DNA of 64,000 nt from Schoenoplectus triqueter (lineage: Eukaryota; Streptophyta; Magnoliopsida; Poales; Cyperaceae). Both the position numbers and the translations under genes were made by a program. The DNA lies in assembly GCA_964058805.1 (NCBI GenBank), contig CAXKVV010000304.1:1-64000 (forward strand), written 5' to 3'. Positions 15,090 to 21,000 of the stretch are shown in pieces. The notes beneath the pieces are model-generated. The model was not told the origin of the DNA and searched no databases. It saw nothing but the letters and a program-made list of their open reading frames with translations. Position 1 is the stretch's first letter; each line of letters opens with the position of its first letter.

Positions 15090-18000
15090 TTAGCTGATTA
15101 CTTTAGAAACAACACCAGCACCCACAGTTCTTCCTCCTTCCCTGAGTGCAAATCTTTGCCCTGAAGATGATTAAAAAAGGCGCAAATTAAAGGATATAAA
15201 TCTAAAAGACTAAAGCAAGATGTTAAAACAACTATCATGAAATAAACAAAGTCAGAGTCCAACTCAAATGTAGGATACCTTGTTCAAGGGGGACAGGAGA
15301 GATGAGCTCAAACATAGCTGTGACATTGTCACCAGGCATGACCATCTTGACGTTCTCAGGCAACTCGACTTTGCCAGTAACATCAGCAGTGCGCAGGTAG
15401 AATTGGGGGCTGTAGTTGGAGAAAAAGGCTGTGTGCCGGCCACCCTCATCCTTTGTCAGCACATATATCTCTGCCTCGAATTTCTTGTAAGTCTTGAGCG
15501 TCCCTGGCTTGCACACCACCTTTCATGATCATGAACCAACATATTAGAGACACAGATTTAACTACCGGCCGCAATTTAAATTTCAAGGTTGGCATAACAT
15601 AAAATTTAATAGGATATTATTAATCAGCAGTATTTTCTTATATCTGCAGGTTCTCTTATCCTACATACAGGGATGCATCTTTGACCAATTATACCTTCAT
15701 CTCTTTTCCTGGGATTTTGGTGCTGTTTCTTTGTAGACATCAGAGTGAAATACTGATCTACTTATATTGAACAAAGACTACTCAGTCCTGCTTTGTGAAA
15801 TACTGATCCACTTATATTAGATAGACCCTTTACCTGGGCATGAAGAATATTATTAGGTAATAGCTAATACCTGGCCACGCTCTGTTGAGAAGTAATTCAA
15901 ACTCAGGGGCAATTCAGTCATAGTTGTGTTTACTTAGTTTTATTTTCCAGTAAGTTGTCTATTTACTATATTTTCTGTTGGGCCATGTTTGATTATCCAT
16001 AATTAGGTGTGTGTTATTTAATTAGAACTACTCTGAAAGGTTATGAGGGTTTTTAGGCGGGAGATGTGTGAGGAGAAGTTATTTTTGCTTTTTATAACTG
16101 TGTTGAGTATATGATATGTAACCAGATGGTCTTCAGATAAGGAAAAAGGAGAATACAAGTCGTTTAGTTATTTCCAGAAATTCTCAGTGTGGTTGTTCTG
16201 ATCATTGTGATTGTGTATAAATTGTGAGTTTGTGAGAGATCTGAACCAACATTGTGGTATCAGAGCGAGGGATTGAGGGCCAAAGATGACAAGTTCAAAC
16301 CAATTGTCTGTTCCAATGTTTGATGGAGACAATTATGATTTTTGGAAGATTAAAATGACCACAGTTTTCAAGTCACAGGGATTATGGGATCTAGTTAAGA
16401 ACGGTATACCAGATCCAAATCCAAATCCTGATGACACCGACAAACGTGATGCAAAAGCCATGATGTTGATCCAACAAGGTCTCACTGACTCAATTTTTCC
16501 AAAGATTGCTTCATGTAATAGAGCAAAGGAGGCTTGGGACATCTTGCAGACATCGTTTCAAGGGACTGCTAAAGTGATGACAGTAAAACTGCAGAGTCTA
16601 AGAAGGGAGTTTGAAACACTGCAGATGGAAAGAGATGAAAAGGTGATATCTTTTTTAACAAAGGTGCAGAAAATTGTTAACCAGATGAAGATCAATGGGG
16701 AACAAGTGGGTGATCAAAAGGTAGTGTGCAAGGTTCTAAGGAGTTTAACAGCAAAATTTGATCATGTAGTGGCTGCAATTGAAGAATCCAAAGACCTTGA
16801 CACATACACCTTTAATGAACTTATGGGATCTCTCCTGAGTCATGAAAGTAGAGTAATGAGAGATGAGGAGAAGTCTGAAACTAGCGATAAAGCCTTTTAT
16901 GCACTAGGGCAGTCTTTTAGAGGAAGAGGCAGAAACAACAGAGGTAGGGGAAGCATGTATAATAGAGGAAGAGGAGGAAGAGGAAGAAGTGCAGGAGGAA
17001 GAACCTCAGATTCTTCTGGTTATGATTCAGTGGAAGAAAGCAGCAGGAGACTAAGGTGTTACAACTGCAACCAGATTGGTCATTATCAATCAGATTGCCC
17101 AAATTCCTCAAAGAAAAACATTGAATGTTATTACTGCCACAAACCAGGTCATTATCAGTCTGAGTGCTACAAACGGATGAGAGAAGAAGAACAAGTCAGC
17201 TATGCCAAAGAAGAAGAAGAGAGTGAAAAAAATGAGAATGATGCAAGGCTGTTCATGGCATACAGTGACAATCAGAAAACAACAAGTGACATATGGTTTG
17301 TGGACAGTGGCTGTTCAAACCATATGTCAGGTCAGAGAGAGAACTTTGATGAACTGAATGAAACTCACAAATTGAAAGTGAAATTAGGAGACAACAAGTC
17401 CATTCAAGTTGAAGGTAAAGGCACTATTACTGTCAATACATCAAGTGGTCTAAAAAGGTTAAAAGATGTGTATTTTATTCCAAATCTGTCTCAAAATTTG
17501 TTAAGTGTGGGACAACTAACTAAAAGTGGTTGTACTGTGGTGTTTAGTCAAGGATGTTGTAAGATTTTGGATGAAAGAACATCTAATACCTTAGCAGAAA
17601 CCAGAATGTCAGACAATAAATTGTTTCCTTTAGTAATAACGAGTGTGAAAGAGAGAGCTCTCACAGTTCAAGAGAATAACCAAACTGAATTGTGGCATTG
17701 GAGGTTTGGTCATTTGAGTGTGTCTGGTCTGAAAACTCTGAGACAAAAGGAGATGGTTCTAGACTTACCAGAAATTGGTGAGATTGACTTTTGTGAAGGG
17801 TGTGTGTATGGGAAGCATTCAAGGGCTTCATTTCCAAAAGGGCAGAGCAAGAGAGCAACCCAATTGCTTGAAATAGTTCATGCAGACTTGTGTGGACCCA
17901 TGCAAACAACCTCAATTGGTGGCAGTAAATACTTCCTTCTTTTTACTGATGATCTTAGTAGAATGAGTTGGATCTTCTTTTTACACAAGAAGTCTGAAAC

Positions 18001-21000
18001 CTTTCAAAATTTTAAGAAGTTCAAAGCAGCAGTGGAAAAGCAGTCAGGGAAAAGTATCAAAGTATTGAGAACAGATAGAGGAGGTGAGTTCTTATCTAAG
18101 GAATTCAATAGCTTTTGTGATGCAGAAGGAATTCACCATGAACTAACAACTCCTTACACTCCAGAGCAAAATGGAGTTTCAGAGAGGAAGAATAGAACTG
18201 TTGTAGAATTTGGGAGAAGCATGCTAAAGCATAAAAGATTGCCAGATCATTTCTGGGCAGAGGCAGTTGCAACAGCTGTCTACATTTTAAATATTTCACC
18301 AACTAAAGCAGTGGAAAATACGACTCCTTTTGAGGCTTGGAATGGTTTTAAACCCAGTGTTGCACATCTCAAAGTGTTTGGATGCATTGGCTATGTGTTT
18401 GTCGAAAAGCATAAGAGATCCAAGTTGGATGAAAAATCTGTGAAGTGTGTGTTTATTGGCTATTGTTCTCAATCCAAAGGGTATAAGATGTACAATCCAG
18501 TAGATGGAAAGATAATTGTGTCTAGAAGTGTGAAGTTTAATGAGAAGTCCAGATGGACATGGAGTGATGAGAAGGAAGAGACCAGTAAGAGCAAAGTGGA
18601 AGAGATTGTTGAAGAAGAGGGTGAAGGTGAGTCAATGAGTGACTCAGACAACAGCAGTGAAGGTGAGGTCAATGAAAGACCTTTGAAAGTGTATGTTAGA
18701 AAGAGGAAAGGTGCTAGAAGAATGAGTGAAGTAGTAGGTGAGCAGTCTGGCAGCAAAGTCAGAACAATGGATGACTTGTATAAGTCTACACAAGTGCTAC
18801 TAGTAGCAGATCCTGGTAGCTATGAAGAGGCAGCAAGAGAAGAGGAATGGAGAGAGGCTATGAAGGAGGAAATTGATGCAATTGAGAGGAATAAGACTTG
18901 GAGTCTAGTAGAAGCTCCAAAGGACAGTAATGTTATTGGTGTAAAATGGGTTTTTAGAACTAAAGTGGGTCCTGATGGAAAGGTCATAAAGCACAAAGCT
19001 CGATTGGTGGCTAAGGGGTACAAACAAAAAGAAGGAATTGACTATGAGGAGACATTCTCTCCTGTAGCAAGATTTGAAACCATTAGAATACTGTTGGCAG
19101 TTGCAGCAAGGCTGAGTGTACCCATATTTCAATTTGATGTCAAGTCTGCTTTTCTGAATGGTGAGATTGCAGAGGAGGTTTTTGTTGAGCAGCCACAAGG
19201 TTTTAAGTTGAAAGGAAGAGAAGAGCATGTTTATAAGCTGCACAAAGCCCTATATGGACTGAAACAGGCTCCAAGGGCTTGGTACAGCAAAATTGACCAA
19301 TTTTTTATTGATATAGGTCTTGCAAGGAGCAGGAGTGAACCAAGTTTATATGTGAAGAAGAGTAAAGAGGATGCTGTTATGATGGTGTGCTTGTATGTAG
19401 ATGATATGATCTACTTTGGCACAAATTCTGAGATGGTGGCTGATTTCAGGAGTAGCATGAAAAGAAGATTTGAAATGACTGATCTTGGACTTCTCAAGTA
19501 CTTTTTAGGATTGGAGATAATCCAGGAAGAAGGTGGCATTTTTCTGTCACAAGAGAAGTATGCAAGAGATTTACTTAAAAGGTTTGAGATGTTAAATTGC
19601 AATGCATGTTCTACACCCATGAATGCAAAGGAGAAACTGATGAAAGATGATAAAACAGGAGCAGCAGATGCACTGAGATTCAGAAGTTTAGTTGGAGGTC
19701 TAATCTATCTTACACACTCTAGACCTGATATTAATTACTCAGTTAGCATAATTTCAAGGTATATGCAAGCTCCATCAAAGCAACACATGGGGGCAGCAAA
19801 GAGGGTGTTGAGGTACGTAGCTGGAACAACTGATTTGGGACTCTGGTATAAAAGAACTGATGATGTGAAATTAGTTGGGTTTAGTGATAGTGACTGGGCA
19901 GGGTGCCAAGATGAAAGAAAGAGTACTTCTGGTTATTTGTTTGCTATTGGAGATACACCAGTAAGTTGGAGTACAAAAAAACAAACTTCTGTTGCACTAT
20001 CTACAGCTGAGGCAGAATATGCAGCTGTTAGTTCAGCAGCATGCCAAGCAGTGTGGATCAGAAAGATTCTAGCTGACATTGGGTGTAAGCAAATGGAAGG
20101 AACTGTGATGTTTTGTGATAATACATCAGCAATTGCCATGGCAAGAAATCCAGTGCAGCATGGAAGATGCAAGCACATAGATATCAAGGTTCACTTTGTC
20201 AGAGACTTGGTGACAGAGAAAGAGATTGTGCTGGAACACATTTCAACTGAAGATCAAAAAGCTGACATCTTAACCAAAGCATTGTGTCTGCCAGTGTTTG
20301 AAAATCTGAGGAACAAATTGGGAGTTACAAAGTTTGAATTAAGGGAGGGTGTTGAGAAGTAATTCAAACTCAGGGGCAATTCAGTCATAGTTGTGTTTAC
20401 TTAGTTTTATTTTCCAGTAAGTTGTCTATTTACTATATTTTCTGTTGGGCCATGTTTGATTATCCATAATTAGGTGTGTGTTATTTAATTAGAACTACTC
20501 TGAAAGGTTATGAGGGTTTTTAGGCGGGAGATGTGTGAGGAGAAGTTATTTTTGCTTTTTATAACTGTGTTGAGTATATGATATGTAACCAGATGGTCTT
20601 CAGATAAGGAAAAAGGAGAATACAAGTCGTTTAGTTATTTCCAGAAATTCTCAGTGTGGTTGTTCTGATCATTGTGATTGTGTATAAATTGTGAGTTTGT
20701 GAGAGATCTGAACCAACACGCTCAACATCACCTCTTTTTAGACCACGGAGCAATAGTCCTACATTATCCCCAGCCTACATTGATCACAGAACTATTAGAA
20801 CATAAAAAAGTAACTTAAGAATCTTCAGCTGAGATCATGTTCTTAGCAACAAATTACATGTTCACATGCTAACATGAAGTTGTAGCAGTAGTACCTGTCC
20901 ATGATCCAAGATCTTTTTGAACATCTCGACTCCAGTTACAGTTGTCTTTACAGGACCTCCCTATTCAAAAACAAAAACAATACAAAAGGAACACTTAAAT

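Follow-up and report, generated by a model that had tools for sequence, protein, structure and literature searches.

The window, a stretch of 64,000 nucleotides, carries on its reverse strand a gene for a mitochondrial (TUFM-type) EF-Tu, which was modelled in 12 exons (26174-15090) on the basis of GT-AG introns and homology. Exons 1 to 5 are located at 26174-25957, 25403-25328, 24786-24694, 22743-22669 and 22412-22308, exons 6 to 9 at 22048-21958, 21686-21481, 21202-21119 and 20960-20895, and exons 11 and 12 at 15519-15279 and 15160-15090, while exon 10 is split by a mobile element. Among the database matches listed, the proteins of the sedges Rhynchospora pubera (96% identity; P0001) and Carex rostrata (95%) are the best, and, judged by sequence, a sedge is most likely the source of the gene. 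The listing that contains the Rhynchospora match includes many entries labelled mitochondrial, whereas identity to the plastid-type gene of the same assembly is 64% and 61% within the long exon of that gene and 87% for 61 residues encoded by its first exon; by these comparisons the gene resembles plant mitochondrial EF-Tu more closely than plastid tufA. Its N-terminal extension resembles that of the proteins P0001 and P0002, and mitochondrial targeting is putative. An AlphaFold model of P0001 had a mean pLDDT of 53.6 and was set aside. Intron 3 contains a perfect 117-bp tandem duplication (24080-24196 and 24197-24313), and the end of a cyclophilin gene (PF00160; 13675-13989, forward strand) lies tail to tail with EF-Tu.

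The original prediction had held that, apart from the insertion, the gene is intact, and this was borne out. All 11 introns of the 12-exon model are bounded by GT and AG, and the protein pieces on either side of the insertion contain no stop. To this may be added a comparison with 24 homologues chosen from 120 listed (21 from named plants and three from metagenomes or read archives, a few of them cut at the C-terminus), in which 287 of 446 comparable columns are invariant; the EF-Tu described here is unchanged at all 287, a count that covers the protein except for RGQ, which directly follows the break. At positions 39, 40 and 311 (P0001 numbering) this protein carries residues that none of the 24 homologues has there. 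Thus, the gene is undecayed and, since every invariant column is kept, had been under selection until the insertion, or very nearly so.

The element is a full-length Ty1/copia LTR retrotransposon of 4,836 bp (15883-20718, forward strand) and is oriented antisense to the host gene, a point that adds to the earlier description. Its 5' LTR (15883-16251) and 3' LTR (20350-20718) are each 369 bp in length and begin and end with TG...CA. The identity of the two LTRs over 369 bp, reported previously, was reproduced with no differences, and the repeat extends by no further base on either side. A primer-binding site, TGGTATCAGAGC (16255-16266), which is presumably of the initiator-Met tRNA type, and a polypurine tract, AAGGGAGGG (20341-20349), were read by eye beside the 5' and the 3' LTR, respectively, both on the element's strand. 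Between them, a single uninterrupted gag-pol reading frame of 1358 aa (16286-20362, forward strand) gave Pfam matches, when searched in pieces, to Retrotran_gag_2, two zinc knuckles, gag_pre-integrase, rve, the retroviral SH3-like domain and RVT_2. The two CCHC zinc knuckles lie in tandem at 17057-17167 (17057-17098 and 17126-17167), and the domains follow the copia order, with Retrotran_gag_2 within 16286-16885, rve within 17846-18445 and RVT_2 within 18686-19885. The separate pieces of the Pfam search reached the zinc knuckles and resumed at 17486, and a simple protease pattern, D[ST]G[AS], had no match in the element. With its TG...CA LTRs, 5-bp target duplication, domain order, primer-binding site and polypurine tract, the element is a member of Ty1/copia. 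A piece of its reverse transcriptase showed 47-66% identity to the 120 proteins listed of 7,976 database matches, in a search confined to proteins of 0.55 to 1.75 times the length of the piece, so that full-length polyproteins were left out. Horizontal transfer of the element was considered and not adopted, as these matches neither support nor exclude it.

The element is flanked by two copies of the target-site duplication CGCTC (15878-15882 and 20719-20723). The 5' part of exon 10 (20719-20774, reverse strand) comprises 56 nt including one copy of the duplication, and the 3' part (15871-15877, reverse strand) consists of the last 7 nt, followed by the native donor GTATTA. Joined over one CGCTC, the exon is 63 nt or 21 codons in length, with phase 0 at both ends, and the 21-residue peptide of this restored empty site is identical to that of P0001 from Rhynchospora pubera. 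The exon is broken at its Glu-Arg codons and the duplicated CGCTC is the overlapping exon sequence, in agreement with the original prediction, whose exon halves of 20774-20724 and 15882-15871 are right when the duplicated bases are assigned to the downstream side. By alignment, the Glu at the break matches residue 287 in the chain of E. coli and residue 299 in that of Thermus; the Arg is what we take to be the residue that contacts the 5' end of the aminoacyl-tRNA.

A second full-length copy of the element resides on another contig (C1368:13683-18518) and is identical over 4,836 of 4,836 bp, as compared in three overlapping pieces. It is flanked on both sides by a duplication of its own, TTAAT, and parts of an alpha-carbonic-anhydrase-like gene (PF00194, E values 1.2e-8 and 1.6e-10) lie on either side; this copy thus appears to be located in an intron of that gene, again in antisense orientation. 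The existence of an identical copy makes it conceivable in principle that a copia copy was wrongly joined into the EF-Tu contig by repeat-induced confusion during assembly. However, the two copies differ in their flanks and in their perfect 5-bp duplications, and a misjoin would not yield CGCTC twice around sequence that joins into a conserved exon. The second copy with its own duplication indicates that two separate and very recent jumps are real and that a misjoin is unlikely; we regard an assembly artefact as extremely improbable. The identical 369-bp LTRs, the exact 5-bp duplication within conserved coding sequence and the second copy with its own duplication confirm an insertion beyond chance. 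The earlier claim of a young copia element in an exon of mitochondrial EF-Tu is thereby upheld, on the evidence of LTRs, duplication, Pfam domains, second copy and the 96% homologue.

In the searched assembly the LTR has four matches, two per element, and there is no solo LTR among the four. When a 900-bp piece of the reverse transcriptase was used as the query, the other 28 of the 30 matches listed were at most 80% identical, except for two short pieces of 55 bp at 84% and 58 bp at 81%. Since the searched assembly is partial, the whole genome may contain more copies of the family. Two copies do not suffice to tell whether it prefers exons or introns. For dating, a substitution rate of 1.3e-8 per site per year was used. 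With zero differences between the two copies, the sum of the two insertion ages is less than about 48,000 years (95% upper limit), compared to a limit of about 313,000 years from a single LTR pair alone; half the rate doubles these limits, to about 95,000 years for the sum. An insertion this young would have left no time for the gene to decay.

When exon 10 is read into the element, translation continues past the last native Glu for 29 residues, of which the first is still Arg, and then meets a stop that lies 85 bases inside the element. The original prediction had pointed out that EF-Tu is needed for mitochondrial protein synthesis, so that a null insertion should be tolerated only in a heterozygous plant, beside another copy or when the element is spliced out, and this paradox holds. 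We consider it very likely that a recent, complete copia element in antisense orientation in exon 10 of a working EF-Tu gene represents a young loss-of-function allele which is covered by another functional copy. According to this proposal, a structurally complete and recently active element would have landed in exon 10 of a mitochondrial EF-Tu gene that worked until then, and a transcript that reads into the LTR would stop early, resulting in an allele without full-length EF-Tu. The truncated product would break off before the end of domain II and have no domain III, and the transcript would probably be subject to nonsense-mediated decay, since the premature stop sits in an internal exon. Thus, the insertion probably knocks out this copy of the gene. 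The plant would survive by a second functional source, which might be the other allele, if the plant is heterozygous, or a duplicate gene located beyond the searched assembly.

Alternatively, the element might act as an instant intron and be spliced from the pre-mRNA by means of a cryptic donor in exon 10 and an acceptor at the LTR end. The donor, GAG/GTGATG, lies 13 nt before the element, and the acceptor, ..CTTCTCAACAG/AGCG, would be composed of the terminal CA of the LTR and the G that opens the target duplication on the gene strand; the predicted product is in frame and lacks three residues (GDV). Eight donors, taken from exon 10 up to the first stop, and 210 acceptors across the element gave 13 in-frame, stop-free pairs, of which this one is the best; both of its scores fall in the range of the gene's own sites. 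With general plant splice weights, its rank among 2,514 simulated combinations of exonic position and orientation of the element is 8 (9 in a rounded count), and among the 1,257 antisense ones it is 7 (8 in a rounded count); when the weights were perturbed in 60 sets, the median rank was 11 of 2,514 (5-95%: 5 to 35). However, with weights derived from the gene's own 11 introns the rank drops to 869 of 2,514 (62 of 1,257 for antisense), and the ranking was carried out after the pair had already been seen; as the rank depends on the scoring matrix, the notion that such splicing is a robust prediction was abandoned. Splicing of this kind would also need an 11-nt micro-exon, AGCGTGGCCAG, to be recognized downstream of an intron of 4,850 nt in which many sites compete, the strongest donor inside it, CTG/GTAAGT, scoring 10.8 compared to at most 9.0 for the native donors, and the D of the lost GDV is invariant in the 24 homologues. 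Introners elsewhere in eukaryotes can take a splice site from the target duplication (PMC9860276). There, splice sites are partly borne by the element and partly derived from the target or exon, a likeness shared only if the element here is spliced; the introner families have a median length of 30-654 nt and traits of DNA transposons, whereas the present element is a 4.8-kb LTR element whose splicing is only predicted. Taken together, we consider rescue by splicing highly improbable. As LTR elements end in CA, one that inserts before a G brings about a CAG acceptor. That the element here is an instant intron of this kind, and that a 4.8-kb copia element could thereby be homozygous in an essential EF-Tu gene of which there is one copy only, appears very improbable.

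A further way in which the gene might be saved is skipping of exon 10, by which exon 9 would be joined in frame to exon 11 and an EF-Tu lacking 21 residues of domain II would have to work. The exon is indeed exactly 21 codons long with phase 0 at both borders. However, the missing stretch aligns roughly with residues 270-290 in the chain of E. coli, and the 24 homologues show no variation at 17 of the 21 columns; function without it would be very unlikely, and we give exon skipping hardly any credence.

The original prediction had proposed a genome search for a second mitochondrial EF-Tu gene, and none was found in the 82 Mb of assembly searched, which is partial and contains, in three tests, about a quarter of the genes expected in a plant. 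A plant has roughly 15 genes of family PF00118, 6 of PF00133 and 4-5 of PF00562; here they were found on at least three, two and two contigs, respectively, the counts being lower bounds from searches carried out exon by exon. In these 82 Mb, a 255-bp query of exons 9 and 10 matched the EF-Tu locus only, and the two protein pieces matched this gene, the plastid-type EF-Tu and, weakly, one further site (34%; C1124). The plastid-type gene (C2007:6500-11500), with a transit-peptide-like start and one apparent intron, is the only other clear EF-Tu. A pattern of the empty site with up to three mismatches revealed no genuine empty site in the 82 Mb; its one match (C315), which encodes GDVERGQ, was dismissed as chance, given GA-rich repeats around it and no other EF-Tu exon in 8.5 kb of surrounding sequence. 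Since the assembly is partial, the absence of a second gene is weak evidence. When 15 kb of sequence were used to look for an allelic contig, repeats dominated the matches, with 39 of 2,721 candidates scored and the window itself absent from the 80 matches listed, so that the result has no bearing on an allele. Two tRNA-synthetase genes (C989 and C2058) were considered as alleles of each other and were judged to be paralogues or homoeologues instead, with 91% identity over 3,585 and 79% over a further 1,749 aligned positions. Among the 120 proteins listed, Iris pallida, Dioscorea alata, Canna indica, Zea mays, Phragmites australis and Zingiber officinale each have more than one EF-Tu protein cluster. 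Some of these may be alleles or isoforms; EF-Tu duplicates are nevertheless plausible.

Active Ty1/copia elements of plants, such as Tos17 and Tnt1, have a gag-pol in one reading frame, the copia domain order, a 5-bp duplication and insertions in genes, and the present element resembles them in all these respects. Plants offer many examples of jumping-gene insertions of this type; the present one stands out by the central role of the gene that was hit. Of 66 polymorphic Ty1/copia insertions in flax, 14 interrupt exons and 30 reside in introns, and both orientations occur (PMC5142383). Young copia elements in exons and introns are thus known there, similar to the one exonic and one apparently intronic copy described here; the flax case concerns varied genes, whereas the present one concerns a mitochondrial translation factor in a probable sedge and two identical copies. 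Exonic copia insertions are ordinary, and both copies fit the flax picture. A literature search yielded no copia insertion in an EF-Tu exon that was named in the titles or abstract openings listed. The locus is evidence of a copia family that was active very recently in a probable sedge and is present there in two identical full-length copies, and it provides a clean natural allele with which to study how a plant tolerates losing one mitochondrial EF-Tu gene. Were the insertion homozygous and no other such gene present, an explanation by splicing or by dual targeting would be forced.

Elsewhere in the window, a 367-aa open reading frame with four imperfect 84-nt repeats (4494-5597, forward strand) belongs to no Pfam family and has a JGI metagenome protein (94%) as its sole database match. 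No Rfam match was obtained over the whole window at the gathering threshold. Further repeats are a perfect 60-bp tandem duplication (12785-12844 and 12845-12904), a repeat at about 30965-31430 that has many copies across the assembly, mostly of about 88-94% identity, and an inverted repeat (39422-39632 and 39672-39882) with 211-nt arms that are 91% complementary and 39 nt apart. A direct repeat of about 78-80% identity (83% in a 300-nt core) links 55557-57656 to a second unit, assigned by coordinates, that runs from about 63473 past the window end on the same contig. Between the two units, three reading frames with polyphenol-oxidase domains (tyrosinase, PPO1_DWL and PPO1_KFDV) are located at 58086-61511 on the reverse strand.
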